Shown: piece by piece, positions 1 to 18,510 of the stretch | How positions within the stretch are numbered: the stretch's first letter is position 1 | How the letters are laid out: each line of letters begins with the position of its first letter | Virus record (IMG/VR): IMGVR_UViG_3300044952_001282 | Coordinates: 1-32,036 of that record | Strand: one strand, 5' to 3' | Origin: a virus | DNA: 32,036 nucleotides | Translations under genes and position numbers: made by a program | Notes under the pieces: model-generated | The model's database searches: none | What the model was told of the DNA's origin: nothing | Seen by the model: only the letters and a program-made list of their open reading frames with translations

Positions 1-130
1 TTAAGCATGGCTGACTCCTTAAAGCCGTGCATGATGCCCGCGAAAAGCACAGACGCAACCGGGCGCAGGGTGACGCTAAAAGAAAAACTGATTAATTCTG
101 ATTAAGATTGATTAAGAGTTAATCAAAGGT
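1..130. repeat. Left copy of direct terminal repeat
   Basis: Positions 1-126 are identical to 31907-32032. Position 127 is A here and T at 32033, and 128-130 agree again. The simplest reading is that the contig closes into a circle of about 31,906 bp and the overlap is an assembly or sampling overlap; a true packaged terminal redundancy is the alternative. The repeat holds the first codons of the portal gene (minus strand, ATG at 8-6) with its AAGGAG site at 15-20, and the heptad array of the early control region. Confidence 0.9.
89..125. promoter_or_regulatory. Four TGATTAA heptads phased at 10 bp
   Basis: TGATTAA starts at 89, 99 and 109, and its reverse complement TTAATCA starts at 119, giving exact 10-bp spacing on one face of the helix. 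Short phased repeats of this kind are typical binding arrays for ribbon-helix-helix repressors, and two such proteins are encoded just downstream. The array lies between the divergent portal gene and the early operon, so it could control both. The same heptad with the same period recurs before parB. Binding by the ribbon-helix-helix proteins is inferred. Confidence 0.75.
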
Positions 131-139
131 GTATACACC
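108..139 (+). promoter_or_regulatory. Candidate early promoter overlapped by 12-bp palindrome
   Basis: TTGATT (108-113) and TATACA (132-137) are separated by 18 bp and could serve as -35 and -10 elements for the early operon that begins at 184. The -10 lies inside the perfect palindrome GGTGTATACACC (128-139), copy 1 of a dispersed family, and the -35 lies inside the heptad array. A protein bound to either element would be expected to block this promoter. The promoter call rests on sequence similarity only. Confidence 0.5.
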
Positions 140-183
140 TACCTGCAGGGGGAAAAGGGAGGGCAGCACGGAAGGAACCACCA

Positions 184-402
184 ATGCCAAGAAAAAGAGC
201 CCAGCATAAACGCATTGTCGCCGCATGGATCACAGAAACCACAAAGGAGGAACTCAAGAAGATTGCAAAGCAGCAAGGCATCACCGTCTCGGACGTCATC
301 ATCAAAATGCTCGAACAAGGACTGAAGAATGGTACGCACAAAGCATCCTCGAACCAAGGGCCCCAGCGGAAATCGTCCGGCCCGAAAAAACATCAAGATT
401 AA
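184..402 (+). CDS. Ribbon-helix-helix DNA-binding protein (first of pair)
   Basis: This 72-residue basic protein has the pattern of a CopG/Arc-type ribbon-helix-helix domain: a beta strand around residues 9-16 (KRIVAAWI), a first helix (TKEELKKIAKQQG) and a second helix beginning TVSDVIIKML, ending near residue 48. The remaining tail is short, polar and basic. An AAGGAA ribosome-binding site precedes the ATG. It is the first gene after the heptad and palindrome control region, so an autoregulatory repressor, possibly the early or lysogeny regulator, is a reasonable inference. The tail overlaps the start of the next ribbon-helix-helix frame. Confidence 0.75.
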   Translation: MPRKRAQHKRIVAAWITETTKEELKKIAKQQGITVSDVIIKMLEQGLKNGTHKASSNQGPQRKSSGPKKHQD

Positions 403-568
403 GGTCCAGGCGATGGTCGAACAGGATTTGTTCGCCCGCCTGCTGGCCCAGGCAAAAGCCGAAGGCCGTAGCCTCTCGGCTTTTGTTTCACTCACACTGG
501 AGACGAGTGTTTCGTCGTTGAGCGGTGTTAACACCCAAACCAAGGAAACCGCCCATGCCGAAAGCTGA
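329..568 (+). CDS. Second ribbon-helix-helix protein, overlapping the first
   Basis: This 79-residue frame is shifted +1 relative to the preceding gene and overlaps it by 74 nt. The overlapped part is an unconserved basic segment. The domain proper follows directly: strand IKVQAMVEQ, then two helices (DLFARLLAQAKAEGRS and LSAFVSLTLE). The listed ATG at 329 is the only upstream ATG that keeps the whole strand, since the in-frame ATG at 413 would cut into it. The two domains may instead be joined by +1 frameshifting near the A-run at 385-390, giving a tandem ribbon-helix-helix protein. The C-terminal codons contain palindrome copy 2. Confidence 0.65.
   Translation: MVRTKHPRTKGPSGNRPARKNIKIKVQAMVEQDLFARLLAQAKAEGRSLSAFVSLTLETSVSSLSGVNTQTKETAHAES
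524..535. promoter_or_regulatory. Dispersed palindrome copy 2 (GGTGTTAACACC)
   Basis: Perfect copy of the GGTGT-WW-ACACC family. It overlaps the end of the second ribbon-helix-helix gene and ends 19 bp before the ATG of the nuclease gene. Confidence 0.7.
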
Positions 569-1628
569 ACCCGAGCGGATCACGTCGTCGAGCCTAAGCA
601 CCCTGACAACCTGCCACCGGAAATACTTCTACCAGGAGGAACTGGGGCTCCAGCCGATCCGCGATGAATCCTATTTCGCGTTCGGAAAAGCCTGGCACTC
701 CGCTATGGAAGCCCGATCCCAGGGGGAACCGCTCGACATCGCAGTCCAAATCGGAATCGACCAGTCCGTACACGAGTTACCCGAGGACATCGCCGCGACC
801 TTCGCGGGGCTGCTCCGGGCCTACTACGAAGTTTACGGCCCGGCCGATCCCTGGGCCACGGTTCACAGCGAACTACAATTCAACTACCGGATTCCTGGTA
901 CGTCCGGCTGGGCCACGGCCGGCAAGATCGACAACATCAGCGCGGACCAGTCCGCCGCATTCGTGAAGGAACACAAGACGACGGGGGAGTCCGTCGCCCC
1001 GGATTCGCAGTATTGGCTGCGCCTACGCTACAATCCCCAGTTGCTCAACTACGCCGACGCCACCACGCGCCTGCTTGAAACGCCGGTGACAAAGGCCCTG
1101 TACGACCTGGTTCGCAAACCACTCCTGAAGCGCAAGATGATCCCGAAGCTGGACGACAACGGTTTCAAGGTCGTCATGAACGAATCGGACGGATCCCGCG
1201 CCTATCTCAAAGACGGCGTGACGCCGCGCTCCACCGGCGGCGCCGGGTTCATCGTTCAGGAAACGCAGGAATCAGTCGAACAGTTCTCGGACCGGATCTT
1301 CGCGGACGTCATGAGCCGCCGCGATTACTACTTCGCCCGCAAAGAAGTGGCGATCCTGTCTGACACGCTGCAGGCGTTCCGAGAAGAACGCCTGCGCGCG
1401 ATCCGCCTGATCCGGTTTCTCCGGAAACAGGAAAAGACGAAACCGGACCTGCCCCGCGAAACGGCATGGATCCGGAGCTGCAACGGTATGACCTGCCGCG
1501 GATGTCCCTACACCGGTTTCTGCCTGGAAAACAGGACCGTGGACCCCGCCAACCCGCCCGAAGGATACACCATCGCCCATCACCAAGAACTCAATCCCGA
1601 ACCCGAACAGGAGCCCGCCGATGTCTGA
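555..1628 (+). CDS. PD-(D/E)XK exonuclease with Fe-S cluster cysteines (Cas4/AddB-like)
   Basis: This 357-residue protein is a RecB/Cas4-type nuclease, probably a DNA exonuclease that makes single strands for recombination. Visible motifs, counted from the ATG at 555: SSLSTLTTC (Cys20), GKAWHSAME (His48), GKID (Asp126), KEHK (Glu139, Lys141) and QLLNYA (Gln162-Tyr166). These form the PD-(D/E)XK active site. A C-terminal cluster, Cys309, Cys314, Cys317 and Cys323, together with Cys20 fits the 4Fe-4S clasp of AddB and Cas4. The ATG at 555 is preferred to an upstream in-frame GTG at 525 because AAGGAA lies at 542-547. The gene overlaps the Sak4-like gene by 8 nt. No CRISPR genes are nearby, so a phage recombination exonuclease is the likelier role. 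Confidence 0.85.
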   Translation: MPKAEPERITSSSLSTLTTCHRKYFYQEELGLQPIRDESYFAFGKAWHSAMEARSQGEPLDIAVQIGIDQSVHELPEDIAATFAGLLRAYYEVYGPADPWATVHSELQFNYRIPGTSGWATAGKIDNISADQSAAFVKEHKTTGESVAPDSQYWLRLRYNPQLLNYADATTRLLETPVTKALYDLVRKPLLKRKMIPKLDDNGFKVVMNESDGSRAYLKDGVTPRSTGGAGFIVQETQESVEQFSDRIFADVMSRRDYYFARKEVAILSDTLQAFREERLRAIRLIRFLRKQEKTKPDLPRETAWIRSCNGMTCRGCPYTGFCLENRTVDPANPPEGYTIAHHQELNPEPEQEPADV

Positions 1629-2544
1629 GCCCACTTCTCAAGCCTCCACAACCCCCGTACAGCCCGCCCAGCGCCCCGTCAGGCCCCCGGCGAGGCCAGC
1701 CCCCGCCAGAACACCCGTCCCGCCTCAGGCGGCCGTACAGCCCGCCCAGGGGCCCGCCACGAGCCCCGCCGTGTCGTTCGGGCCGATCGCCCGCACGTTC
1801 GGCAAGCGGATCCTCATTCACGGACCCGGCGGCATCGGCAAGTCAACCCTCGCCGCCGCTCTCCCGGGCCCCGTCGGGTTCATCGACCTGGACAACAGCC
1901 TGGGAAGCCTGTACGCCTCCCTGGACGAGGCCGGACTCGCCGGCTCGATCATGAACGTGCAGGGTGTTAACACCTGGGCCGAACTCCGCAAGGCCCTGGC
2001 CGCCCCGGGCTGGGACCAGATCAAGACCATCGTGATTGACTCCGTCACGCTGGCCGAGGAATTCGCCGTCCGCGAGGTGCTCCGCACCGTCCCGAAGGAC
2101 GACAAAGGCTCGCTTGCCCGCCGGATCGAGGACTACGGTTACGGAAAGGGCTACCAGCACGTCTATGACGTGTTCCTAGGACTCCTGGGCGATCTGGACC
2201 GGCACTTTCAGGCCGGCCGGAACGTCTGCCTGATCGCCCACGTCTGCACGGCAGAAGTCCCGAACTCGAACGGCGTGAACTACCTCCGCTACGAGCCGCG
2301 CCTCCAGGCGCCCGGCTCGGGGAAGGGGAGCATCCGACACCGCGTGGTCGAATGGTCCGACTTCACCCTGTACATCGGCTACGACATCAGCGTGGACGAC
2401 GACGGCAAGGCCAAGCGGTCCGGATCCCGCACCCTCTGGCCCTCGGAGGCCGGAGGCTGCATGGCCAAGTCCCGCACCTGCCTGGAGCCGCTCCAGGTCA
2501 CGAAGTCGAACGGCGCCGCCGTCTGGGCCCGTTACCTGATCTGA
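1621..2544 (+). CDS. Sak4-like RecA-fold ATPase
   Basis: This 307-residue protein begins with about 50 residues rich in Pro, Ala and Arg, then a P-loop ATPase domain. Walker A is GPGGIGKST (residues 68-76) and a Walker B strand IKTIVIDS ends near residue 141. The size, the compact single domain and the place directly after a PD-(D/E)XK exonuclease match phage Sak4 single-strand annealing/recombination ATPases of the AAA_24 type. It presumably pairs or anneals DNA exposed by the upstream nuclease. The start overlaps the stop of the nuclease gene (ATGTCTGA). Palindrome copy 3 lies inside the coding sequence, where it encodes Gly-Val-Asn-Thr. The exact subfamily is inferred. Confidence 0.8.
   Translation: MSEPTSQASTTPVQPAQRPVRPPARPAPARTPVPPQAAVQPAQGPATSPAVSFGPIARTFGKRILIHGPGGIGKSTLAAALPGPVGFIDLDNSLGSLYASLDEAGLAGSIMNVQGVNTWAELRKALAAPGWDQIKTIVIDSVTLAEEFAVREVLRTVPKDDKGSLARRIEDYGYGKGYQHVYDVFLGLLGDLDRHFQAGRNVCLIAHVCTAEVPNSNGVNYLRYEPRLQAPGSGKGSIRHRVVEWSDFTLYIGYDISVDDDGKAKRSGSRTLWPSEAGGCMAKSRTCLEPLQVTKSNGAAVWARYLI
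1963..1974. promoter_or_regulatory. Dispersed palindrome copy 3, inside the Sak4-like gene
   Basis: GGTGTTAACACC within coding sequence. No promoter is needed at this place, so a structural or partition role fits better than simple operator function. Confidence 0.6.
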
Positions 2545-2580
2545 CAACAACCCGCACCCGAAACCGAAAGGACCGAGACC

Positions 2581-2763
2581 ATGGACCAGACCGACCTCGA
2601 CATCATCAAGACCAACACGAGCGACACGAAAGACGTCGCCCAGCGGATCCTGGAAGGAAACCGCGACAACTATGACGGCTGCGACGGAGCCCGCGAAGTC
2701 GTTGACCTCTGCTCCACCATCGAGCGCCTCGTCACGGAACTCGAAAAGCACCTCGCCAAGTAA
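2581..2763 (+). CDS. Small acidic hypothetical protein
   Basis: This 60-residue protein has a good ribosome-binding site (AAAGGA upstream of the ATG) and sits between the ATPase and the SSB-like gene in the same direction. The sequence is helical in character, with charged residues and a C-terminal heptad-like stretch (STIERLVTELEKHL). No known family is recognised. Its position inside the recombination cluster suggests a small accessory factor, but this is guilt by association only. Confidence 0.65.
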   Translation: MDQTDLDIIKTNTSDTKDVAQRILEGNRDNYDGCDGAREVVDLCSTIERLVTELEKHLAK

Positions 2764-2795
2764 CCCAACCCCAGACCCAAGAAAGAGATCAGACC

Positions 2796-3578
2796 ATGCA
2801 AGTCGGAAGAATCGGAGCCATCGCCACCGCGGCCCAGGTCGGAACCACCGCCAGCAACGCCCTGTACATCGAATTCACCTGGCTCATGACCGGGCCGGCA
2901 GACCAACAGGAATCGCTCACCGCCAAGTTCTTCGTCACGAAGAAGGGCGGCGAGCCGATCGAATCAAAGATCAAGCAGCTCAAGGAGGCCTTCGCCTGGA
3001 ACGGGGATGACATCTACTGGTTCGAAGACAAGTCCGCCGACGGCTCGCTCTCGGACATCCAGGTCGTCGTCGTCATCGAAGACGCCTCCTGGACGAACCG
3101 CAAGGGCGAACTGATGCCGTCCTGGGGAGTCGCATTTATCAACCCGCCGAACGGGACCGGCTACACCCCGCAGAGCGGGCGCCTCTCCCGCGACGACTTC
3201 CGCGAGCGCTTCGCCTCGAAGTTCCGCGCCGTGACGGGGCCCGTGACCAGTCCCGCGCCGGTGGCCACCGTAGCACCCGCAGCGCCCGCCGCTTCGCCGT
3301 CGGGTGTTAACACCCCGCCGGCAGCGGCCAAACCCAAGGCCAAGCCCCGCGCCGCATCGAACAGGACCCCGACCGCCCCCGTGGACTTCACCCACGACCA
3401 GGTCTGGGAGAAGATGCTCGAACAGGCCGCCATCGTCGGGCTCACCGACGAAGACCGCGACGCGAAGTGGTACGAGCTGCTCGACGCCGTGGCACCGAAC
3501 AAGACCGAGGAGAATCTCACCACCGCCGAGTGCAACGCCCTCATGGCGAAGGTGCTGGAGATCAAACTCCCGTTCTAA
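2796..3578 (+). CDS. Putative single-stranded DNA-binding protein
   Basis: This 260-residue protein has three parts. An N-terminal domain (about 1-145) is rich in predicted strands and aromatic residues. A flexible Ala/Pro/Lys linker follows (about 148-195), and then a helical C-terminal region ending in Lys-Leu-Pro-Phe. Phage ssDNA-binding proteins placed after Sak4-type genes commonly have this plan, with a short terminal tail ending in Pro-Phe that recruits partners. No family can be named firmly from sequence alone, so the call rests on architecture and neighbours. Palindrome copy 4 falls in the linker. Confidence 0.5.
   Translation: MQVGRIGAIATAAQVGTTASNALYIEFTWLMTGPADQQESLTAKFFVTKKGGEPIESKIKQLKEAFAWNGDDIYWFEDKSADGSLSDIQVVVVIEDASWTNRKGELMPSWGVAFINPPNGTGYTPQSGRLSRDDFRERFASKFRAVTGPVTSPAPVATVAPAAPAASPSGVNTPPAAAKPKAKPRAASNRTPTAPVDFTHDQVWEKMLEQAAIVGLTDEDRDAKWYELLDAVAPNKTEENLTTAECNALMAKVLEIKLPF
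3303..3314. promoter_or_regulatory. Dispersed palindrome copy 4, inside the SSB-like gene
   Basis: GGTGTTAACACC in the linker-coding part of the gene, again read as Gly-Val-Asn-Thr. Confidence 0.6.
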
Positions 3579-3591
3579 CCCAATAAACCGC

Positions 3592-3623
3592 GCCGCCGAC
3601 CGCCCACGAGGGGCGGCGGCGGC
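3592..3623 (+). other. GC-rich intergenic hairpin
   Basis: GCCGCCG plus CCGCCC (3592-3605, with one bulged A) pairs with GGGCGG plus CGGCGGC (3611-3623) around a 5-nt loop. It lies in the 57-nt gap after the SSB-like gene and just before the ribosome-binding site of the next gene. There is no T-run, so it is more likely an RNA stability or attenuation element than an intrinsic terminator. Confidence 0.6.
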
Positions 3624-3635
3624 TGGAGGACGCCA

Positions 3636-3992
3636 ATGTCCGACCCGATCAAGCCCGAGCCCGGACCGCTCCCCGAGCCCACCGTCCGCTGCCCCTGGTG
3701 CAATAGCCGCATTATGACCAACCAGGGCGAATCCTGGTGCGAAGACCGAGACTGTTTACTCGCCTGCCCAATCCGCGATTTTGAGATGGACCAGCTGATC
3801 CGCGCCCTCGCCAGGGACAAACGGATCCTCGCCGGACACTCAATCGAAATCATGCCTATCCGCGGACAGTTCCCGGACGTCCACGAGTTCAAGGACCGCG
3901 TGGAGTTCAGAGGGACCGGAATCATGATCAAAGCCCCGACCGCCCAGCACGCATCGAAGCTCTGGAACAACCTCGCCAAGGACCGCCCGTGA
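3636..3992 (+). CDS. Zinc-ribbon protein, Lar (restriction alleviation)-like
   Basis: This 118-residue protein has an N-terminal zinc ribbon, CPWC at residues 19-22 and later WCEDRDC, laid out like the Lar restriction-alleviation family (CPxC, an aromatic, then a second Cys pair). Lar proteins modulate type I restriction of incoming phage DNA. The C-terminal two-thirds (about 45-118) is not part of that family's short form and is unrecognised. GGAGG precedes the ATG. The stop codon overlaps the GTG start of the next gene. The zinc site is well supported and the Lar role is tentative. Confidence 0.5.
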   Translation: MSDPIKPEPGPLPEPTVRCPWCNSRIMTNQGESWCEDRDCLLACPIRDFEMDQLIRALARDKRILAGHSIEIMPIRGQFPDVHEFKDRVEFRGTGIMIKAPTAQHASKLWNNLAKDRP

Positions 3993-4276
3993 AAGACTCC
4001 ACCCGTACCATCATCCAAAGCCTCATGACCGACGATGCCACCTTGACCGACCGCGAGCGAGACCTGCTCGCCGTCGCCGTTGCAGGCGGCGAACAGCAGC
4101 CCACCGACTCGATAATGACCCGCGCCGAGGCGGCGCAGTTGCTCCGCCGCGACGTTCACACGATCGACGCCTACGCCAGGCGCGGCATCCTCAAGCGGAT
4201 CAAGTACCCCGGCCAGACGCGAGCGCCCGGCTTCCGCGCGTCAGACGTGCGGGCCTTGATAGGGGAGGCCCCATGA
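3989..4276 (+). CDS. Small helix-turn-helix protein, excisionase-like
   Basis: This 95-residue protein starts at GTG, overlapping the previous stop by 4 nt. Its C-terminal half matches a MerR/excisionase-type winged helix: MTRAEAAQLLRRDVHTIDAY, then ARRGILKRI, a basic wing (KYPGQTRAPGFR) and SDVRALI. Proteins of this kind act as recombination directionality factors or small repressors. As the genome encodes a tyrosine integrase and no other obvious excisionase, this is the best candidate. The N-terminal 40 residues are unassigned. Confidence 0.65.
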   Translation: MKDSTRTIIQSLMTDDATLTDRERDLLAVAVAGGEQQPTDSIMTRAEAAQLLRRDVHTIDAYARRGILKRIKYPGQTRAPGFRASDVRALIGEAP

Positions 4277-4788
4277 CCCCGCTCCGCGCCTGGAGGCTAA
4301 ACTACCGCGCCGTGTTCGGCGCCTTGAGCGAAGAGACGGCCCGCGCCTGGGAAGACTTCGCCCGAGCCGCCATCAAGCCGCACCCGAGCACATCGGAATT
4401 CGACTGCGCCATGGTGAACCTCTGCGACTCCAAACACACCGAAGGCGGCAAGGCGACCGTGATCGCCTTCGTGAGCTGGATCCGCCGCAACCGGGCCAAC
4501 TCAGGCCGGCGCAATCAGGCCGAGGCCGAGCAGGCGAAAGCCTCGGCCATCCGAACAATTCGGTACGGCTCGCTCGGCCAGGTCTGGGCGGCCCTGTGCA
4601 ACCCGAAGCTCACCGACCTGGACCGCCCGAAACTCAAGCACCTGGCCGAGTCCACCAGACCCGACCTGTGCAACGCCAACGGGATGCTGGACCGTCAGGC
4701 CGAGTTCACAATCTCACTGGCGGAAATCCTCAAGGCGTCGGGCCTGGAGTTGCCCGCGTCCAACAGAAAGCGCCAGGTGGCGGCATGA
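4273..4788 (+). CDS. Hypothetical early protein
   Basis: This 171-residue protein is coupled by ATGA overlaps to both neighbours. It is largely alpha-helical and basic, with Trp-rich N-terminal helices and a central Arg/Asn/Gln-rich stretch (IRRNRANSGRRNQAEAEQA) that could contact nucleic acid. It lies between the HTH protein and the VRR-NUC nuclease, where phages often carry replication or recombination accessory genes. No family is recognised and no catalytic motif is evident. Confidence 0.6.
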   Translation: MTPLRAWRLNYRAVFGALSEETARAWEDFARAAIKPHPSTSEFDCAMVNLCDSKHTEGGKATVIAFVSWIRRNRANSGRRNQAEAEQAKASAIRTIRYGSLGQVWAALCNPKLTDLDRPKLKHLAESTRPDLCNANGMLDRQAEFTISLAEILKASGLELPASNRKRQVAA

Positions 4789-4964
4789 ACCGAACGGGCG
4801 TCAAGATCATGCAGCGCGATCTGGCTAAGATCAAACCGATCTGGAAAGCAGGCAAAACCATCCTCGCCAAGTCCATGATTCGCAAGGCCGCCGCCCAGGT
4901 CGGGGTCACGGTGAAAGGCCCGATCCACCTCGACCTGACCACGGGGGAGATCATCACGGAATGA
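4785..4964 (+). CDS. Small basic hypothetical protein
   Basis: This 59-residue basic protein starts at an ATG that overlaps the previous stop (ATGA), and its own stop overlaps the next start the same way. A longer reading of the frame from 4596 lies inside the previous gene and is not favoured. Lys/Arg-rich helices (KIKPIWKAGKTILAKSMIRK) precede a short strand-like C-terminus. It may bind nucleic acid. The family is unknown. Confidence 0.6.
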   Translation: MNRTGVKIMQRDLAKIKPIWKAGKTILAKSMIRKAAAQVGVTVKGPIHLDLTTGEIITE

Positions 4965-5392
4965 GCGACCTGTTTCCCCATGCATCCGAAGAGTTCAAGC
5001 GGCTCAACCCCAGCCTGTTCGGGCCGGCCGCCGCTCCGGTCGCCACCAAGATGGACGCCGCCGACCTGCAGGCCATCACCGACGTCTGCGACAAGGTCGA
5101 GGCTTCGCCGTTGGAGCGCACGCTCCAAGACCTATGCGAGAAAGAACTAAACCGGCGCGGCATCTGGTTCCTGCACCTGTCCCCGCGAGCCAGGGAAAAA
5201 GAGGGAGCGCCCGACCTGATGTTCACCCACCCGATCACGCACCGCTTTTGCGGTGTCGAACTCAAATCCAAAACAGGAGAGCCCTCACCCGAACAGATCA
5301 AGACGCTTGTACAGTTACACAGCAACGGAGCCATGACGGGGTTGTTCAGGAGCTTCCCCCAGTTTCTCTCGTTCCTCAACAGCGCGGAGTGA
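4961..5392 (+). CDS. VRR-NUC type nuclease
   Basis: This 143-residue protein has a C-terminal VRR-NUC fold of the PD-(D/E)XK superfamily. The signature is a Glu in the first helix (SPLERTLQDLCEKELNRRG), GAPDLMF (catalytic Asp) and GVELKSKTG (Glu-x-Lys), followed by the conserved helix EQIKTL. Stand-alone phage VRR-NUC proteins cleave branched or structured DNA and often replace RusA-type Holliday junction resolvases. It would process recombination intermediates made by the upstream nuclease and Sak4-like ATPase. The start overlaps the preceding stop by 4 nt. The N-terminal 45 residues are poorly conserved. Confidence 0.8.
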   Translation: MSDLFPHASEEFKRLNPSLFGPAAAPVATKMDAADLQAITDVCDKVEASPLERTLQDLCEKELNRRGIWFLHLSPRAREKEGAPDLMFTHPITHRFCGVELKSKTGEPSPEQIKTLVQLHSNGAMTGLFRSFPQFLSFLNSAE

Positions 5393-5393
5393 C

Positions 5394-5747
5394 ATGAAGC
5401 CATCCCGTCTTTGCCTTATGTGCGGAAGCCCTTACGTCCCGGCCAGGTCGAGCGCCTACTGTCCGAAGCTGGCTTGCCAGAAGAAAGCAGCAGCCGAGCG
5501 GACCCGCCTGTACAAGATCCGTAAAAAGATCAAAGCCAAAGCACGGCGGAAATGGAGACAGAACGAAACGGCCAGAGCGGAAACGTATCACCTTCCCCTG
5601 GCAGTGAAACTCAAAGTCATTCAAATCGAACTGATCGCCCTGGAAGTAGCGAAGCAGAAACACAGCCAGGTCCCCCTGGCCCAGGAGCAGGGGGCAGCGG
5701 ATTCGCTTGAAGCGATCCGCCGCCTCAGTGAATCAACGAACCGGTAA
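5394..5747 (+). CDS. Zinc-ribbon basic protein
   Basis: This 117-residue protein has an N-terminal zinc ribbon: Cys-x2-Cys (residues 7-10) and later YCPKLAC. A strongly basic helical region (KIRKKIKAKARRKWRQ) and a neutral helical tail follow. The layout suggests a nucleic-acid-binding protein. The ATG lies one base after the nuclease stop codon, so translation is probably coupled. The gene is followed by an AAAGGA site for the next one. Function is not recognised. Confidence 0.6.
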   Translation: MKPSRLCLMCGSPYVPARSSAYCPKLACQKKAAAERTRLYKIRKKIKAKARRKWRQNETARAETYHLPLAVKLKVIQIELIALEVAKQKHSQVPLAQEQGAADSLEAIRRLSESTNR

Positions 5748-5754
5748 AGGAACC

Positions 5755-6027
5755 ATGAACCCGCCCACCAGCAGAACTTCAATCCGACACGACGACACGG
5801 AGATCCCCGGCGCCGTGTCATGCTCAACCTGCATAGACGCAGCCACACGGCCCGGACCACTCTCCCCGTGCTGGCCGTGCATCACGACCTGGAGCCAGTC
5901 GTCGCGCCTCCCGAACTGGCGAGCCAAAGATCAAGACCTGGCCGAAAGCTGTTTCTCGGAACTGGACGCCGACCGGACGAGACACGACATGGAGCGAGAT
6001 TCCCAACACAGAAAGAGGATCGGATGA
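5755..6027 (+). CDS. Small Cys-containing hypothetical protein
   Basis: This 90-residue protein starts at the ATG at 5755, 8 nt after AAAGGA. The open frame extends upstream to 5707, but that part lies within the previous gene. Two Cys pairs, CSTC and CWPC, about 17 residues apart could bind one zinc ion. The rest is hydrophilic. The stop overlaps the next ATG (ATGA). Confidence 0.55.
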   Translation: MNPPTSRTSIRHDDTEIPGAVSCSTCIDAATRPGPLSPCWPCITTWSQSSRLPNWRAKDQDLAESCFSELDADRTRHDMERDSQHRKRIG

Positions 6028-6512
6028 GCAAGACGCCAAGGACAGATGCGGTATTTTTCGCGCTGGCTGCTGTTCACGGTTATGGGCTTGAGGACGTGCG
6101 GCGCGAAATGGAGACCCTGGAGCTTGAACTTTCCAAGGCCGAATCCGACCGCAATCACAACCGCGAGCAGTGGGAGAACGAGGAGCGGGAGAACGGACAT
6201 TTAAGGATTGAAAATCTCAAGCTCAAGGAGGAGTTGGAGAAGGTCAAAGGGGAGAGGGATGAGGCGCTCGCCGACTTTCAAGCCCTGAAAGGAAACCGAT
6301 ACGCCAAACAAGTCGCGTGTCTACAAGCAGCCCTCTCCGCCCTCCGCGCCCGTCTCTCCTACGGCGTCAAAGGCCGCATCATCGAGGCGGGCAACCTTGA
6401 ATCGACGGGCAAGCCGGGGCTGTTGATCGAGTCCACGGTTGACGAGCTGCGGGGCAAGGCGTGGATTGGGGAGTGTGTTGTGTTGAAGGAAACCGGAAAG
6501 GACGGCGTGTGA
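6024..6512 (+). CDS. Coiled-coil hypothetical protein
   Basis: This 162-residue protein begins at the ATG overlapping the preceding stop. A continuous, strongly charged coiled coil runs from about residue 25 to 95 (EMETLELELSKAESD through LKEELEKVKGERDEALADF), flanked by short globular ends. Such proteins often follow recombination genes in small phages, but no function can be assigned. The stop shares a base with the next start (TGATG). Confidence 0.6.
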   Translation: MSKTPRTDAVFFALAAVHGYGLEDVRREMETLELELSKAESDRNHNREQWENEERENGHLRIENLKLKEELEKVKGERDEALADFQALKGNRYAKQVACLQAALSALRARLSYGVKGRIIEAGNLESTGKPGLLIESTVDELRGKAWIGECVVLKETGKDGV

Positions 6513-9540: not shown

Positions 9541-9572
9541 CTGACCCGCGGTGTTTACACCGGCGAGGGTCA
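9541..9572. promoter_or_regulatory. Palindrome copy 5 within a longer inverted repeat
   Basis: GGTGTTTACACC (9550-9561) is flanked by the inverted arms CTGACCC (9541-9547) and GGGTCAG (9566-9572). No gene starts nearby, so it is unlikely to be a simple promoter operator. Confidence 0.65.
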
Positions 9573-9858: not shown

Positions 9859-11175
9859 TCAAGTTTTCAGGTTTTCCAGGAGCACGGTGCGGACCTTGCG
9901 CCAGTTCCGGGCGGTCATGCGCTGGACGAGCGCCCGCAGGTTCACCGGGGCCCGGGCCGGCTCGGCGGTGAGCCCTGGCAAGAGCGCCACCGCGGCCGAC
10001 GCGGCGGTGTCGGACGTGTGGGTGTAGTGCTGGGTCATGGCGGGGGAGGAGTGGCCCACGATCGCCTCCACGATCGAGAGCGGAGCGTGAGCCGCCCGGC
10101 AGAGCGAGACGAACGAGTGCCGGAGGGAGTGGAACCCGACGTCCACGACCGCCCGGACCCGCTTCGCGCCGGGAACCGTGGCGCGGGTGGTGGTGATCCC
10201 GCAGGCTTGGAAGTGGGCCTGGACCGGGCGGGAGACGAACGCCGGACCCCGGGCGTAGTCGCGGGCCAGATCCGGTGTGACGTGCTCCCCGTGGCGGGGG
10301 AGAGTGGCCATGACGCCAGCGAGCGCCGGATGAATCGGGATCCGCACCGGCTCAGATTTTCGCCGGGCCGTCTTGTTCGGGATCCGCCGGATGATCCCGG
10401 CGGTGAGATCGACCTCCGCCCAACGGAGCGTCGAGGCGTCGCCCAGGCGCAGCCCCGTGTACATCCCGATTGCGAGAAGCGTCCGGATCGAGCCCGCCGC
10501 GGACCCGCAGACGAGCCGGAGTTCGTCGATCGTCAGTTCCCGCCTGGAGGCGGTCTCATGCCGACGCCGCCGGATCCGCAGCCACGGGTTGAACTCGAGC
10601 TCGAGCGTCCGAAACACCAGAGCGAGGGTCCGAACGTTTTTGTTGAACGTGTTCGGAGAGATGCCGCGCGCGCCCAGCGCGACGGCATAACTCTCCGCCA
10701 TCGGGCCCGTGACATCCCGCAGCGCGAGCGCCGCCGGGTACTTCCCGGAATGCCAGGCCTCCCACTGGGCGAAGTGAGTCCGGTACTCGTTCAGGGTGCC
10801 TGGCCCGCAGTCCGGCCGAGCTGGGGACCGGGCGAAGGATTCCCAAGCAGACCCGACCTGCAGCCCGGGCGCCGCAGCCACCGCGCCGGCCCTCGAGACT
10901 GAGACCCGTGCCGCCAGCAGCGCGAGAGTATCGGCCTCATGTTCCAGGGAAAACGGCGCCATGAGCGCCGCTCGAGCGTGTTCGGCCTGCTCCGCCGACT
11001 CGCAGGGCGAGCCGTCGGGATTGGCGAGGACCTTGGAGAAGCAGCGCCGATGGCGCTTCCACCGGCAAACGAACCGGCCGGACCGGGTTTGAATCACGCT
11101 CCCGCTGACTGGTTTCATAAAACCCCGCTTTGTTGGTTCCTTCCGTTCCTTACCATTCCCATCCGATGAACTCAA
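9859..11175 (-). CDS. int: Tyrosine recombinase (phage integrase)
   Basis: This 438-residue protein would integrate and excise the phage DNA at a tRNA gene. An N-terminal basic region and a SAM-like core-binding domain (about 105-195) precede the catalytic domain. The catalytic residues are visible: Arg243 (YTGLRLGD), Lys268 (PNKTARRKSE), His349 and Arg352 (HSLRH), His375 (GHSSP) and Tyr384 (QHYTH). The gene is convergent with the early operon, beyond the hairpin-dense region. Its 5' end faces the attP site at 11240, 65 bp away, the usual arrangement for a tRNA-targeting integrase. An internal Met at residue 20 is an alternative start. Confidence 0.93.
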   Translation of the reverse strand: MSSSDGNGKERKEPTKRGFMKPVSGSVIQTRSGRFVCRWKRHRRCFSKVLANPDGSPCESAEQAEHARAALMAPFSLEHEADTLALLAARVSVSRAGAVAAAPGLQVGSAWESFARSPARPDCGPGTLNEYRTHFAQWEAWHSGKYPAALALRDVTGPMAESYAVALGARGISPNTFNKNVRTLALVFRTLELEFNPWLRIRRRRHETASRRELTIDELRLVCGSAAGSIRTLLAIGMYTGLRLGDASTLRWAEVDLTAGIIRRIPNKTARRKSEPVRIPIHPALAGVMATLPRHGEHVTPDLARDYARGPAFVSRPVQAHFQACGITTTRATVPGAKRVRAVVDVGFHSLRHSFVSLCRAAHAPLSIVEAIVGHSSPAMTQHYTHTSDTAASAAVALLPGLTAEPARAPVNLRALVQRMTARNWRKVRTVLLENLKT

Positions 11176-11201: not shown

Positions 11202-11239
11202 GCCTGTTTCACGGAACCGGCTGGAATTGTCGTTTATAT

Positions 11240-11286
11240 TGGGGTGCGTGACGGGATTCGAACCCGCGACATTCAGATCCACAATG
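11240..11286 (-). other. attP core: 3' half of a tRNA-His gene
   Basis: Read on the minus strand, this holds the anticodon loop TTGTGGA (anticodon GTG), the 3' anticodon arm, the T arm GCGGG-TTCGAAT-CCCGT, the acceptor strand CACGCAC and the terminal CCCA. The 5' side of the anticodon stem does not pair (TCGCA against TCTGA), so homology to the tRNA stops there and no complete tRNA is encoded. This is the pattern of an attP core that restores the 3' end of the host tRNA-His gene on integration. It lies next to the integrase gene. Confidence 0.85.
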
Positions 11287-11373: not shown

Positions 11374-11432
11374 TTCCGTTCCTTGCCGTCCTTTCCGGTG
11401 TTTACACCGTGAAAGGGGGAGTAAAGGGGGAG
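11374..11432. repeat. Right arm repeats of attP
   Basis: TTCCGTTCCTTGCC (11374-11387) and the tandem AAAGGGGGAG copies (11412-11421, 11423-11432) mirror the left arm as direct repeats, with one mismatch in the first element. Palindrome copy 6 sits between them, so a palindrome-binding protein could influence integration as well as terminase expression. Confidence 0.65.
11397..11408. promoter_or_regulatory. Dispersed palindrome copy 6 (GGTGTTTACACC)
   Basis: Perfect copy in the right attP arm, about 90 bp upstream of the small terminase start. Confidence 0.7.
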
Positions 11433-11498
11433 TGCCGGCCGTATCGTAACCACGCGCCGGATTGACGGAACGGGAGCGCGAGCGGTATATCCGCGCGC

Positions 11499-13072: not shown

Positions 13073-13102
13073 CCGCGGGGGAGGGGAAGCCCCTCCCCGG
13101 TC
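13071..13102 (+). terminator. Strong hairpin at the terL stop codon
   Basis: GGGGAGGGG / CCCCTCCCC (13078-13086, 13090-13098) with loop AAG is extended by GACC / GGTC across a 3-nt bulge. It begins within the terL stop codon. There is no T-run, so it may stabilise the 3' end of the message or start the structured region that follows. Confidence 0.6.
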
Positions 13103-13649
13103 CGAGCTTCCCTGGTCCGGTCCGGACGGAAGCCGACCGGCCTCGGACCGGCGCCTGCCGGACTCTCTGAAACCTTCGAGACCGGCGCCCGGCGCCTCCA
13201 GGGCGATCTCGGCCACTCCCTCCCCCGGGCGAGGACACCTCGCCCCGACCGACCAATACCCCGCCGATCGAGACTGCTCCCTCTTCGCACTCGGCCTTTC
13301 GGGCGAGTCGCGCGCGTCAGGGCCCGCGCTGCTCCGCGCCCGAGGCCTCATCGCTCATCCGTCACAGACTCTCCCGGCCCCGCTTCCTTCCGCGGACCGT
13401 TGCCGGAATCCAATCGCGGCCGTCGCGGGCCTCTCAGGTTCGGTCCCGCTTGGGGCCGCGATCGGATGCCGGCGCCGGACCGCCCAGCTTCCGGTCCCTC
13501 GGATCCAGAGTTCAGCCTGTTCTCACGGACCGGCCGGTCTATCGGCCTGGAAAACCGAAACGACGGACGGCTGGTTTTCCGGTGGACCCGATTGGCGGGG
13601 GCCGTCAGGATCTTCCGACGCGGGTTCGGACATAGCCTCACCGGTCTTT

Positions 13650-13693
13650 GAGTCAAGGAACTACGGTCCGGTAGGTCCGTTCCTCCTTGACTC
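13650..13693. other. Nested hairpin in the terL downstream region
   Basis: The outer stem GAGTCAAGG / CCTTGACTC and inner stem AAC / GTT are followed by ACGG-T-CC paired with GG-T-CCGT around a GGTA loop. About 18 base pairs form over 44 nt. Confidence 0.7.
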
Positions 13694-13997
13694 ATCAGAC
13701 CGGCTCGTCTGACTCACCCGCTTGGAATTCACCATCCGGCCTGGTCCCGCCAACCCCTGAGCGGGGGTCAGACATAGGCGGGCTCGTTTCAGCGTCAAGG
13801 TAGTGCCTTCGGCCTCCACCTTGACCCCGAAACTGAATACGCCCGCCGACTCCCCCCGCTCAGGTTCGGGCCCAGCGGAAAGAAACGCCGTCCGTCTGTC
13901 GGTTTTCGGCGGCCGGCCCGTCCGGATCCGCTCGCCCAGGGCGCCGCCTTGCCGATACGCTGGCGCGATCGTCCGGCGGCTGGGGGAATTGGTTTGC

Positions 13998-14024
13998 GCC
14001 AGCGAAGCTGGCTCTGCCCTTTTT
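13998..14024 (+). terminator. Possible intrinsic terminator
   Basis: GCCAGC-GAA-GCTGGC (13998-14012) is followed by TCTGCCC and five T (14020-14024). The short stem and the gap before the T-run make this a weak candidate. It would end transcription of the structured region before the next operon. Confidence 0.45.
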
Positions 14025-14121
14025 CTTCGTTGTGGGGCGCTCTATGTTGTTTCTATGGCCCTTTGTTCTGGTTGAGGCCCGCGTGCCTTTTATCATTTTT
14101 TGAAGACGCCCCTTTCTCCTC

Positions 14122-14178
14122 AGCCGCACGGAACCGGGTGTTGTTATTCGAAACTCATACACCCGGCTCCATACGGCT
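14122..14178 (+). promoter_or_regulatory. Leader hairpin before the 14199/14238 gene
   Basis: AGCCG / CGGCT (14122-14126, 14174-14178) encloses CCGGGTGT / ACACCCGG (14134-14141, 14159-14166) with a 17-nt loop. It ends 20 bp before the first possible start codon of the operon, a place suited to control of translation or mRNA stability. Confidence 0.55.
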
Positions 14179-14237
14179 AAGGCGAAAGGTTCGAAAAAAT
14201 GAAAAAGTCACTCACCACAACAAAGGACCAGAAAAAC

Positions 14238-14594
14238 ATGAGCGCCTCCACCCTCGAAAAAAAGTACACCCCCACCACCGACACAGCAAAGGGTTCTTAC
14301 AGCGTGATCTGGAGTCGCGGGGGGCGTGATTATGTCGGGCGTGTGGGACGTGTGAATCGTTTCGAGATCGTTGAAAGCAAATACGGTTTCAGCCTCTACG
14401 ACACCAGCCGCGCCGCTGGCCAGCAGTTTGTGGACAATTACCAGTATTTCACCGATGCAACCGAGCAGTCGGTTTGGATCCTCGTTGACGAAGACGCCGA
14501 GCAGGTCCGCGAATCCAACCGCACCGCAGCAATCGCCGCCCTTGTCAATTTGGGCCTCACGTCCCGCCCCTCGTCCCTGTTTTCCGCCAACTAA
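14238..14594 (+). CDS. Hypothetical protein, first gene of the parB operon
   Basis: This 118-residue protein starts at the ATG at 14238 (AAAGGA at 14222). An in-frame ATG at 14199 with its own AAAGG would add 13 residues. The start SASTLEKKYT resembles the last early protein (STLRKKYT). The body is mixed alpha/beta with Tyr- and Arg-rich strands (SYSVIWSRGGRDYVGRVGRV). The third codon base is mostly C or G, as in neighbouring genes. No family is recognised. It opens a plus-strand operon that continues to parB. Confidence 0.6.
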   Translation: MSASTLEKKYTPTTDTAKGSYSVIWSRGGRDYVGRVGRVNRFEIVESKYGFSLYDTSRAAGQQFVDNYQYFTDATEQSVWILVDEDAEQVRESNRTAAIAALVNLGLTSRPSSLFSAN

Positions 14595-14621
14595 CCAACC
14601 ACAACCCAAGGAACCCAGACC

Positions 14622-15017
14622 ATGAACGACCAGACCACCACCACGACCGAAACCAAAAAGACCCGCAAGCCCCGCACCAAGAAAGCCACGCCGACCATGC
14701 CCGAAACGACCGCCACCCCCACCGCCGCGCCCGTGGACATCCGCACACCGGCAGCCGAGACCACCGCCACCGCCCAGGCCGAAGGATTCGAGCTTGTTCG
14801 CGGGAATACCTACCCTTGCCGCCTGGAACTGCGCCGCATGGGGGGCGAATGGGACAAGGCCGCTTATGCCTGGAGAATCCCCGCCGCCCAGGTGGAACGA
14901 GCCCGCGCCCTGGTCGCGAGCATGGGCCCGAAGGTGCCCTTTGTCGGACCTATTCAACCGCGCCGCCCCGCCATCGTGAAACCCGCCGAAGTCAACGCCG
15001 ATTCGATCCCGTTCTAA
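14622..15017 (+). CDS. Small protein with SSB-type C-terminal tail
   Basis: This 131-residue protein begins with about 45 residues rich in Thr, Lys and Pro. A compact domain follows (GFELVRGNTYPCRLELRRMG, then GEWDKAAYAWRIPAAQVERA), which recalls a small motif common in plasmid and phage proteins (TYPVKxxLKxxGGxWDxxxKAW). The C-terminus Asp-Ser-Ile-Pro-Phe closely matches the Asp-Ile-Pro-Phe tip through which bacterial SSB recruits partners. It may bind single-stranded DNA or compete for SSB partners. That role is inferred. Confidence 0.6.
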   Translation: MNDQTTTTTETKKTRKPRTKKATPTMPETTATPTAAPVDIRTPAAETTATAQAEGFELVRGNTYPCRLELRRMGGEWDKAAYAWRIPAAQVERARALVASMGPKVPFVGPIQPRRPAIVKPAEVNADSIPF

Positions 15018-15028
15018 ACCCGCAACAA

Positions 15029-15058
15029 GGGGCGAGGTCGCACCACGCGACCCGCCCC
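15029..15058 (+). promoter_or_regulatory. Hairpin just before a ribosome-binding site
   Basis: GGGGCG-A-GGTCGC pairs with GCGACC-CGCCCC (15047-15058) around the loop ACCAC. It ends 2 bp before GGAGAA, the ribosome-binding site of the 15073 gene, so it could tune translation. It resembles the hairpin before the 3636 gene in position. Confidence 0.6.
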
Positions 15059-15072
15059 CAGGAGAACAGACC

Positions 15073-15768
15073 GTGACCACCGAAACAAAGCCCATGATCC
15101 CGAACGCCGAAGGGCAAGCCGTCGTGAACGACGACACCGCCACCATTTACAGCCAAACCGAGGGCCGAATCTACTCCTTCGCCCTGGCCAATGGCCGAAC
15201 GTGCTGGGGGAATGAGTCGCTGGAGGAACTGAACGCCGCCCATCCTGGGAAAGATTACATCGTGATCCCCTTTGCCGAAGCCCTGGAACGATCCCGCGCG
15301 CGCGAAGTCGCGGACTACTGCCACCCGCTGGAAGCCATCACCCGCGCCCGATTCGATGAAATGTTGAACGTGCTCCCGCCGCAATGCTGGAAGCGTAAAA
15401 AAGGCTGGGAAGCCTTCCGAATGATGGAATACACAACGGGCAGCATCACCGCCCATTATATCCGGATCGGAGATAGGCACTTTACCGCCCAGCGCGAAAT
15501 AGGGCCGAAGGTGTACGAAACCTTGAAGGCCGAAGCCGAGGCCCTGATTGCCTCCGAGCCGAAGAAACTGGAACGCCCCCGCTCGCTCCAATGTGCATGT
15601 TGTGGAGAGACCACAAAGGGCCGCCAATGGTGGAACCGTGATACCGGATGGGGCGTATGCCCAAAATGCTTCCAGTGGATCGCATCAAAGGAAGGCCAGG
15701 AAGAAGCCGAGCGCAGTTATGGCAAGCCTGGAGTCCACCACTCTTTGCCCGAAACCGTTGAAGCCTGA
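15073..15768 (+). CDS. DUF1419-like protein with C-terminal zinc ribbon
   Basis: This 231-residue protein starts at GTG 6 nt after GGAGAA. The middle section (FDEMLNVLPPQCWKRKKG, then EAFRMMEYTTGSITAHYIRI) recalls DUF1419, a family seen on plasmids and mobile elements of unknown function. The C-terminal part has Cys-x2-Cys (CACC), then CPKC about 22 residues on, forming a zinc ribbon. Such proteins commonly travel with plasmid maintenance genes, which fits the parB gene downstream. The family assignment is from memory of its conserved pattern and is uncertain. Confidence 0.55.
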   Translation: MTTETKPMIPNAEGQAVVNDDTATIYSQTEGRIYSFALANGRTCWGNESLEELNAAHPGKDYIVIPFAEALERSRAREVADYCHPLEAITRARFDEMLNVLPPQCWKRKKGWEAFRMMEYTTGSITAHYIRIGDRHFTAQREIGPKVYETLKAEAEALIASEPKKLERPRSLQCACCGETTKGRQWWNRDTGWGVCPKCFQWIASKEGQEEAERSYGKPGVHHSLPETVEA

Positions 15769-15784
15769 ACAAGGAGCCCCACCA

Positions 15785-16060
15785 ATGACCGCCGCACAGA
15801 TACTCCCCTATGTCGCATCAATCCTCATGACCGCCGCCGAGACCGAGCCCGACATCTTCCCCGAGTCGATGGCCTACCTTGCCGCCGGAGGCATGGAAGA
15901 ATGGAACATGATTAAACGTGTCATGCTGCATATCCAGGTTATCACGATTGAAGGAAACCTGATCCGGTTGACCCCGAAAGGGAGAGACTACGCCCACCGC
16001 ATGAATGCCAGTGTGAAAGCCGGAACCGCCCCCGCCTCAGTTGTCGCGAAAGTCGGATAG
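15785..16060 (+). CDS. Small hypothetical protein
   Basis: This 91-residue protein starts at the ATG 9 nt after AAGGAG. The open frame reaches back to 15548 but lies inside the previous gene there. It is helical with a winged-helix-like C-terminal half (VITIEGNLIRLTPKGRDYAH). That suggests a possible DNA-binding fold, but evidence is thin. A terminator-like hairpin follows directly. Confidence 0.55.
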   Translation: MTAAQILPYVASILMTAAETEPDIFPESMAYLAAGGMEEWNMIKRVMLHIQVITIEGNLIRLTPKGRDYAHRMNASVKAGTAPASVVAKVG

Positions 16061-16068
16061 AAAAACCG

Positions 16069-16097
16069 GACGAACCCTGAAAACAGGGTTCGTCTTT
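16069..16097 (+). terminator. Intrinsic terminator-like hairpin
   Basis: A perfect 11-bp stem GACGAACCCTG / CAGGGTTCGTC (16069-16079, 16084-16094) with loop AAAA is followed by TTT. The short T-run may allow partial read-through into the 16115 gene. Confidence 0.7.
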
Positions 16098-16114
16098 CCA
16101 GAAAGGCCCTCATC

Positions 16115-16357
16115 ATGAACGCAACCGAACAGACCGCCCAGCAAGCCCGCGCCCAGCTCGACAGAGCGATTGACGCCCACCGCGCCGCACTGAGAGATAA
16201 CCGCCCTGGAGACGACCCGCAGCAGAGGCACGAAGCCCGCCGCGCCGCCGAACGCGCCCTTCAAACCGCGAAGCGAGCCCGCGCCCTGGTGAACCAGCGC
16301 GAGCGCCGCCTCTACGCCGAGCAGAACCCCGGTTTCATCCTTCTCTTCAATTCTTAA
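16115..16357 (+). CDS. Small Arg/Ala-rich helical protein
   Basis: This 80-residue protein has AAAGG upstream of its ATG. Its sequence is a nearly continuous charged helix (QARAQLDRAIDAHRAALRDN, later ARRAAERALQTAKRARALVN) with a short hydrophobic C-terminus. It may be a coiled-coil dimer. It lies between a terminator-like hairpin and the parB control region. No function can be assigned. Confidence 0.5.
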   Translation: MNATEQTAQQARAQLDRAIDAHRAALRDNRPGDDPQQRHEARRAAERALQTAKRARALVNQRERRLYAEQNPGFILLFNS

Positions 16358-16429
16358 TCAAAGTTAATCAGATTGACTCAGACTCAGACAATGGTGTAAA
16401 CACCCGAACAACCGAAGGTGTTAAACACC
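16354..16429 (+). promoter_or_regulatory. parB control region: phased heptads and two palindromes
   Basis: TTAATCA begins at 16354 and 16364, and a degenerate copy TGACTCA begins at 16374, again at 10-bp steps. Next come GGTGTAAACACC (16393-16404, copy 7) and the 13-bp variant GGTGTTAAACACC (16417-16429, copy 8). A possible -35 TTGACT (16373-16378) lies in the heptads and a weak -10 (TGTAAA, 16395-16400) lies in the palindrome, repeating the design of the early promoter at 89-139. Autoregulation by the ParB-like protein or control by the ribbon-helix-helix proteins is inferred. Confidence 0.7.
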
Positions 16430-16447
16430 GAACCAAGGAAGCAGACC

Positions 16448-18136
16448 ATGAAGAAGCAGACCCGCAAGGCCAAGACCCCGAAGACCGAGACCGCCCCCCA
16501 GGACGCCGCCGACATGGTGGACGTGAAAGTGGAGGCTCGCCAGATCCCCTTGCACCAGATCGACACGAACCCCGACAACCCCCGCCAGATGGACCCGAAC
16601 GACCCCGCCCTGGCCGAGCTGGCCGAATCCATCGCCAAGACCGGCCTACTTCAGCCCATCCTCGTCAGGCCCATGCCGGACGGCCGCTATCAGGTCCGCG
16701 CCGGTGCGCGTCGCTTCGCCGCTCACCAGCGCCTGGGAGCCGAATCCATCTTGTGCATAGTCCGCGACATGACGGACGCCGAAGCCATGCAAGCGACCGT
16801 CCTGGAGAACCTCCAGCGTAAAGACCTGACCTTGTTCGAGGAAGCCGACGGCGTGGACCGGCTGGTCCGCCTCGGGCGCCCGATCGGCCAGATCGCCGCC
16901 GAACTCGGCAAAAGCCCGAGTTGGACCGACCGCCGCGCCAGCCTTGCCAACCTGGCCGCTGGCATGAAAACCAGGATTGAGGACAACGAGCTTTCCCTGG
17001 AGACCGCCCTGGCCCTCGCCACCATGAGCCCCGAGGACCAGGCCGAAGCGCTCAAGGAATGGCCCTCCTGGACGTGGAACGGCAACCGCTCGAACGAGAT
17101 CATCCAGAAGGTCGAGGAAACCCGTCACCTGCTCGCGAAGGCCATCTTCAACAAGGCCGATTGCGCGGGCTGCCAGAAGCGAAGCGACCGGATCAACTTG
17201 CTTTTTGAGGACACCGAGACGGCCAACCCGAAAAAGATCAAGTGCCTCGACGGCAAGTGCTGGAAGCAGAAGCACGAAATCGAACTCGGAGCCCGCCGCA
17301 TCCGCGCCATGCAGGACCACCCGAACCTGGTTGAAGTCCGGACGGAATACAACTCGGGCATGGACTCAGTCCCCGAGTTCCGGAAAGACGCCGTGAGCCC
17401 TTACCAGGCGAAATACCGCGCCCTCAAGAAAGACGACCCGCCCGAGGCTTGCGTTTATGGCCTGATCGTTTACGGGCCGGGGGAGGGGAAGCTGGTCGAA
17501 ATGGTCTCCCTGGAGACGAAGAAGCCGGAAGCCGTGGAAGCCGGACCCAAGCCGGAAAAGACCGACCTGGACCGGATCGCCGACCTGGTGAACAAGCGGA
17601 AAGCATGGATGGTTGACGCCTTCCGCCCCCTGCTGCGAGGTGAAAGCCCGATCCCCGCCGAGAACTTCGCCACCTGGGCACCCAAGAAAATCCTGTCCGT
17701 GGTTATGGCCTTTGGAACGTGCTCCCGCCAGAACTCCCGCGAGCCCAGGAGCTGGAGGCAGTACCAGGAGGACACCGCGACCAGCGCCCGCGAACGCTGG
17801 TTGTCCGAAATCATACCCGTCCTGCACTCGGGGTTGCACGTCCGGACGCTGGCCGACGCCGCCGAAGCATGGAGCGAGGTCCTCCGGATCGCCGCCTTGT
17901 TCGACTGGGACATCTTCGCGGAACTCCGCGAGAAGGCCATCGAAGCCGTGCCGATGTCAAAGCGCCTCCAGGCGGCCCACTACATCGACCCGTTCAGCCT
18001 CACCCTGGCCGACGGATCCAACCGCGATATGACCGCCTACACGACCCCGGGCCCCCTGGGAGAAAACGGATTCAAGTACTCGGAACACCACCAGGACGAG
18101 GACGAATCCCCGGAAGAGGAGGACGGCGAGGAATAG
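16448..18136 (+). CDS. parB: ParB/Spo0J-family protein
   Basis: This 562-residue protein starts at the ATG 8 nt after AAGGAA. An in-frame GTG at 16418 lies inside a palindrome and is less likely. The N-terminal ParB domain shows NPRQ (44-47), LAESI, GLLQPILVRP (66-75), box II GARRFAAH (86-93) and ENLQR (120-124). A helix-turn-helix follows (about 146-165, IGQIAAELGKSPSWTDRRAS). A Cys cluster (DCAGCQKR, then CLDGKCWKQK) and a long alpha/beta region come next, and the tail is acidic. ParB proteins bind palindromic sites and spread or slide using CTP. Palindromes lie directly upstream. No ParA ATPase is encoded, so it may be a KorB-like regulator and organiser. A strong terminator follows. Confidence 0.87.
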   Translation: MKKQTRKAKTPKTETAPQDAADMVDVKVEARQIPLHQIDTNPDNPRQMDPNDPALAELAESIAKTGLLQPILVRPMPDGRYQVRAGARRFAAHQRLGAESILCIVRDMTDAEAMQATVLENLQRKDLTLFEEADGVDRLVRLGRPIGQIAAELGKSPSWTDRRASLANLAAGMKTRIEDNELSLETALALATMSPEDQAEALKEWPSWTWNGNRSNEIIQKVEETRHLLAKAIFNKADCAGCQKRSDRINLLFEDTETANPKKIKCLDGKCWKQKHEIELGARRIRAMQDHPNLVEVRTEYNSGMDSVPEFRKDAVSPYQAKYRALKKDDPPEACVYGLIVYGPGEGKLVEMVSLETKKPEAVEAGPKPEKTDLDRIADLVNKRKAWMVDAFRPLLRGESPIPAENFATWAPKKILSVVMAFGTCSRQNSREPRSWRQYQEDTATSARERWLSEIIPVLHSGLHVRTLADAAEAWSEVLRIAALFDWDIFAELREKAIEAVPMSKRLQAAHYIDPFSLTLADGSNRDMTAYTTPGPLGENGFKYSEHHQDEDESPEEEDGEE

Positions 18137-18151
18137 CCAACCCGAACCCCC

Positions 18152-18183
18152 AGCCCCCGCGCCCCAGGCGGGGGCTTTTTTTT
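18152..18183 (+). terminator. Intrinsic terminator after parB
   Basis: AGCCCCCGC / GCGGGGGCT with a 7-nt loop (stem 18152-18160 and 18168-18176) runs into a stretch of eight T (18176-18183). It begins 15 bp after the parB stop codon. Confidence 0.9.
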
Positions 18184-18211
18184 CCCGCAACCCCCGACAG
18201 GAGCCCGCCCC

Positions 18212-18436
18212 ATGAACCAACCCACCACCCGAGCCGCCCGCGCCCTCCTGGACTCGATCCGGACCGGCCAGAGCAGCACCCAGACCCGCCCCACGACCCC
18301 GAGCGCCCGCCGCAAGCCCCGCACGGTCCGAATGACCCCCGCCGCCCTCGCGGCCCTCCTGTCCCCCCTGGCTGGCCAAAAAAAATCGCCGGACAGCCCC
18401 GGTGCGGGCTGTCCGGTGTCATCCAAGACCCTCTGA
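18212..18436 (+). CDS. Small basic hypothetical protein
   Basis: This 74-residue frame has GGAG 9 nt before its ATG and C-rich third positions like its neighbours. The first 55 residues are basic and Thr/Ala/Arg-rich (TRAARALLDSIRTGQSS, then RRKPRTVRMTPAALAALL). The last part is encoded by a minus-strand terminator hairpin, so the natural protein may tolerate an arbitrary tail. It lies after the parB terminator and before convergent late transcription. It is a plausible but unproven gene. Confidence 0.4.
   Translation: MNQPTTRAARALLDSIRTGQSSTQTRPTTPSARRKPRTVRMTPAALAALLSPLAGQKKSPDSPGAGCPVSSKTL
18378..18416 (-). terminator. Second terminator of the late operon
   Basis: CCGGACAGCCC / GGGCTGTCCGG (18389-18399, 18406-18416) has eight A on its left (18378-18385), so on the minus strand the stem is followed (after CGA) by eight T. 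It backs up the terminator at 18585-18620. Confidence 0.85.
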
Positions 18437-18498
18437 CCCACATTTCAACCCCGCCACAAGCCCCAGCAAGGCCCCTGGCTGCCCGTCTGAGGCGTTCC

Positions 18499-18510
18499 GG
18501 TGTTTACACC
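18499..18510. promoter_or_regulatory. Dispersed palindrome copy 9 (GGTGTTTACACC)
   Basis: Perfect copy lying between the two late-operon terminators, where no gene starts. It is the last copy: none is found in the following 13 kb of late genes. Confidence 0.65.

Follow-up and report, generated by a model that had tools for sequence, protein, structure and literature searches.

We propose that the eight perfect copies of the palindrome GGTGT-WW-ACACC dispersed in this virus genome are operators of a repressor operon and that they are read by a ribbon-helix-helix (RHH) protein encoded in that operon, a reading to which sequence comparison leads us to assign a probability of about 0.85. An RHH reader is favoured because counterparts of the gene elsewhere in the phylum come, with few exceptions, with their own variant of the site at the promoter, and because the next gene often repeats it in its tail.

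The window, i.e., the whole stretch of 32,036 nucleotides that was analysed, is an IMG/VR virus contig in which positions 1-130 and 31907-32036 form a 130-bp terminal overlap of 99% identity. As its ends overlap, the genome is circular, of about 31,906 bp, and consequently the site at 128 lies between a leftward late operon and a rightward early operon. The phage encodes a Mu-type portal and protease, a terminase, a tyrosine integrase (9859-11175, minus strand), Sak4, an exonuclease and a ParB-like protein, and a stretch resembling a tRNA 3' end, recognised by eye at about 11240-11270, is the putative attP core. Among named phages, the portal is closest to that of Akkermansia phage DTMo-2021a (24% identity), which suggests a host in the Verrucomicrobiota. 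Searching IMG/VR with the ParB, RHH-A (RHH1), portal and capsid proteins yielded no close relatives, and the terminase search yielded distant relatives only, all of which lack the motif.

Copies of the palindrome and their positions

The perfect copies start at 128, 524, 1963, 3303, 9550, 11397, 16393 and 18499, exactly as listed in the preliminary description, which was also right that the two central bases are always A or T (8/8), that a 13-bp variant, GGTGTTAAACACC, starts at 16417 and that the 13-kb late region carries no copy. Where it placed two copies inside genes, there are three. Sites exactly one mismatch away from GGTGT-WW-ACACC occur nowhere in the window. The check that it had proposed, comparison with shuffled and codon-preserving controls, shows the motif in excess of both: dinucleotide shuffles gave a mean of 0.00 perfect copies compared to the 8 observed, and synonymous-codon shuffles that preserve the proteins gave at most 2 copies in 1000 trials, with maxima for any 5+2+5 palindrome class of 6 and 5 copies in the two runs (one or two genes per run were mis-framed, with small effect). 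When all 5+5 palindrome classes of the window were ranked, GGTGT/ACACC came first with 8 copies and the runner-up had 4. All eight lie to the left of 18510, for which p is about 0.013 if placement is uniform.

The three intragenic copies have the same sequence, GGTGTTAACACC, and are read in frame as Gly-Val-Asn-Thr (GVNT), a spelling expected from codon usage in <1% of GVNT occurrences, and the centres of the remaining five perfect sites differ from it. The first of the three predicted operators (524..535) is located in the 3' tail of RHH-B, 20 bp upstream of the exonuclease ATG; the second (1963..1974) falls within the Sak4 gene, in a loop that Sak4 homologues do not share; and the third (3303..3314) lies within gene 2796-3578, in an Ala/Pro-rich stretch of its unassigned 260-aa product. 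Among the other predicted operators, GGTGTATACACC (128..139) is found where the late and early operons diverge, 56 bp upstream of RHH-A, and GGTGTAAACACC (16393..16404) is in the parB promoter region, followed by the 13-bp variant (16417..16429) 19 bp upstream of the parB ATG at 16448. The sequence GGTGTTTACACC occurs three times: at 11397..11408, upstream of the integrase and beside the putative attP core; at 18499..18510, in the gap where the ends of the rightward parB region and the leftward late operon face each other; and at 9550..9561, downstream of a leftward promoter of consensus sequence (9862-9835) and the structured transcript candidate that follows it. This promoter, a perfect TTGACA-16-TATAAT just beyond the integrase end, would produce from the minus strand (9862-9560) a repeat-rich transcript with a folding z of -5.4 relative to shuffles, ending near site 9550. 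The stretch is a candidate structured non-coding RNA, and it has no Rfam match.

Judged by eye, site 128 could cover the -10 element of a TTGATT-18-TATACA promoter, and site 16393 that of a TTGACT-18-TAAACA promoter; a consensus promoter scan of the window flagged neither. Just upstream of the same two sites, at 89-125 and 16354-16370 and almost nowhere else, there are TGATTAA/TTAATCA heptads with 10-bp spacing, which resemble a second, helically phased operator-like element at the RHH and parB promoters.

The RHH operon and its relatives

The proposed reader, RHH-A (72 aa; 184..402, plus strand), is put forward on its Pfam and PHROGs matches, its AF2 fold and its association with operators. 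It matches, weakly but consistently, Pfam RepB-RCR_reg (3e-4) and Arc-like repressor PHROGs. Its AF2 monomer model has helices at residues 18-31 and 35-49 and no beta-strand, and the best folds in the PDB are CopG, ParG, AmrZ and ORF56, but with E above 0.1. The overlapping RHH-B (329..568, plus strand; 79 aa if the start is at 329) matches RHH_5 (0.003), and its C-terminal tail holds the operator at 524. Taken together, the profile matches and the model point to an RHH fold for the encoded regulator.

In IMG/VR, six contigs were found to carry the motif in closely spaced pairs. Two of these, the virus contigs L073 and L074, reproduce the layout of the window: a site, RHH-A, an overlapping RHH-B, and sites in the RHH-B tail. 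In both, GGTGTTAACACC is located 30 bp upstream of the RHH-A relative (MPRKRA..), two further copies in the RHH-B tail encode GVNT, a Sak4 homologue follows about 2 kb further on, and no ParB homologue is detectable. The RHH-B of the window aligns with that of L073, and GVNT is common to both. In a third contig, L069, an Arc-like RHH gene that lacks the N-terminal signature of RHH-A has two sites at its -35/-10 promoter. Contigs L070, L071 and L072 were set aside, as they look like local tandem repeats and have no RHH gene close by. In addition, four dispersed perfect sites are present in a prophage (G199:C87), together with two sites matching at 11/12 positions, one of which lies in the tail (GVNT) of a short RHH-like frame, and none of the window proteins has a convincing homologue in this prophage. 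Akkermansia phage DTMo-2021a (L013), which is unannotated in GenBank, has the same operon, with an RHH-A gene starting at 1978 and GGTGG-N4-CCACC operators at 1949, 2282 and 2339.

RHH-A profiles were searched against 388 genomes of the phylum Verrucomicrobiota and then against 346 genomes of the class, and the proteins with an N-terminal signature of the M[PAT]x[QKS]R type were counted as RHH-A relatives (n=16). A GGTG-N4..6-CACC site within 130 bp upstream was found in 13 of these 16 and in none of 18 weaker RHH hits (Fisher 6e-7, an optimistic value because some family loci, L096-L098, are near-duplicates), while the background rate of the pattern is 1.0% of 143-bp windows. The later class scan, with eight relatives, gave an upstream site in six and in one more a site only at +304/+361. 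Neither L082 nor L138 has a site and L140 has none upstream. The gene at L082 (G199:C23; 571-1602, minus strand), which likewise has no GGTG..CACC site upstream, fuses an RHH-A-type N-terminus to a repressor-like protein with an S24 peptidase domain.

Ten of the 16 relatives have one or two copies at +263 to +402, in addition to or instead of the upstream site; the downstream genes that were read overlap RHH-A, resemble a second RHH and have the operator copies in the codons of their C-termini. Many relatives have the site immediately 3' of TTGAC and 5' of a -10-like sequence, where it fills the -35/-10 spacer. By this comparison, a palindromic operator at the promoter of the RHH operon is a conserved feature of the family. 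Spacings of 12 to 14 bp all occur among the family operators. Over about 20 kb on each side of the RHH-A relatives (less at contig ends) there is no clear dispersal, and what is found are operon sites and occasional matches resembling background.

The relatives are only 20-37% identical to the RHH-A of the window. The operator is mostly uniform inside one locus, and between loci its fifth base and its spacing vary. All four GGTGA loci (L083, L144, L145, L099) have GxY/F in the RHH-A strand and none of the GGTGT or GGTGG loci do; as several of the sequences are related, this covariation of the operator with the RHH-A beta-strand is suggestive and not a clean statistic.

The comparison thus strongly supports the RHH pair, one of the two readers first considered, both in the association of sites with RHH-A relatives and in the layout of L073 and L074. 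RHH-A is most likely the specificity subunit of an RHH complex, but as the same palindrome in L069 lies at an Arc-like RHH gene without the RHH-A signature, RHH-B may be the binding chain instead.

Alternative readers

The idea of a dispersed operator or centromere system stood in part: the sites are read as a dispersed operator system, whereas the ParB-like protein as their reader and the analogy with KorB and with the N15 centromere found no support. Under that alternative, the ParB-like protein (16448..18136, plus strand), which does contain ParB_N (4e-24) and HTH_ParB (3e-6) domains and has two sites directly upstream of its gene, would read the palindromes in the manner of KorB of RK2 or SopB of N15 and spread from them for silencing or partition. 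KorB is a ParB protein with 13-bp palindromic operators, and the 12- to 13-bp palindromes of KorB and KorA are dispersed on a replicon with a gene for a ParB family member (PMC11790492), as are those of the window phage. The window-phage sites, however, track the RHH gene and not the ParB gene: no ParB homologue is detectable in three sequences that have the operators (Akkermansia phage L013, virus contig G406 and prophage G199:C87), whereas the contig of the best ParB homologue (G175:C178) and nine other ParB contigs that were checked lack a dispersed motif. A separate ParB search of the genome contigs gave no match. We therefore regard ParB as an improbable reader, and parB, whose start follows site 16417 by 19 bp, is more plausibly one of the regulated genes.

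An alternative that keeps the RHH proteins is that RHH-A and RHH-B form a centromere-binding pair of a type Ib-like partition system, related to ParG or omega, with the palindromes being centromere-like. ParG is among the top fold matches of the RHH-A model, and ParG and omega autoregulate too. Nevertheless, a ParA ATPase was not recognised among the proteins scanned (part of the ORFs), the phage has an integrase and a putative attP, and most relatives hold the sites at the RHH operon only, which makes partition as unlikely an explanation as ParB. That a host regulator reads the sites, with the phage mimicking a host operator, would account for the same 12-mer in the unrelated prophage G199:C87 of the same phylum, but GGTGTWWACACC is present in only 110 of 388 Verrucomicrobiota genomes, at counts near those of a reversed-pattern control, and every RHH-A locus comes with an operator variant of its own, hence we consider this highly improbable.

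A putative repressor circuit

For the RHH repressor we propose the following scheme. An RHH complex, either a dimer or a mixed dimer, would bind the two GGTGT half-sites, and its binding at its own promoter (128) and at the RHH-B 3' tail (524) would autoregulate the early operon; from site 128, between the divergent operons, the late promoter may also be within reach. Further operators would have spread to the parB promoter (16393/16417), the integrase and attP (11397, 9550), Sak4 and its neighbour (1963, 3303) and position 18499. Repression could take place by blocking initiation, by a roadblock within genes or through loops that join sites, with the intragenic copies serving as roadblocks or looping partners. 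As copies are found at early, integration and parB loci, one repressor could shut off or time those functions together, and the locations of the extra copies, at early genes, integrase/attP and parB with the body of the late operon free, suggest a repressor of early and integration functions that may have a role in lysogeny. The dispersed role is drawn from the window phage and one prophage, since most relatives confine the sites to the RHH operon, and we see about an even chance that the repressor acts prophage-wide.

Like RHH repressors of the Arc/CopG/MetJ type, the proposed reader would have a small beta-alpha-alpha DNA-binding fold and autoregulate through a short palindromic operator in its own promoter. 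Unlike the usual RHH repressors, there are two overlapping RHH genes here, with extra operators in the C-terminal codons of the second, and operators spread over 18 kb. The lac operon has in O2 an auxiliary operator that lies within coding sequence, 300-400 bp downstream of the one at its promoter; the likeness is in this second operator, whereas the fold of the repressor differs and looping is putative here. The spread over the genome recalls the stoperators of mycobacteriophage L5 and its kind, where one repressor acts at many near-identical sites genome-wide, at promoters and elsewhere (PMC9283540). Both are temperate phages with many such sites (here 8 + 1), but those of L5 number >20, are asymmetric and oriented with transcription and are read by a protein with an HTH plus a stoperator domain, whereas the 9 sites here are palindromic, lie in some cases inside genes and would be read by an RHH protein. 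In the literature searched, no paper matched a phage repressor of the RHH type acting at dispersed operators, and we found no account of phage regulation in the Verrucomicrobiota.

More tentatively, and with odds that we put somewhat below even, a self-limiting RHH autorepressor circuit, with one operator at the promoter and others in the C-terminal codons of the partner gene, may have been turned in one phage lineage into a genome-wide, palindromic stoperator-like network that governs early, integration and ParB genes and in which the operator drifts with the RHH strand, leaving related phages mutually blind, as in immunity groups.

Our results give an otherwise unexplained dispersed motif a proposed reader, and they delineate, in Verrucomicrobiota and the phages of this phylum (those of Akkermansia among them), a family of RHH operons with two genes, in which each repressor has its own operator variant and extra operators reside in the coding tail of RHH-B. 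As natural matched pairs of RHH protein and operator, these loci make the rules of recognition, the drift of operators and the immunity grouping of prophages directly testable.
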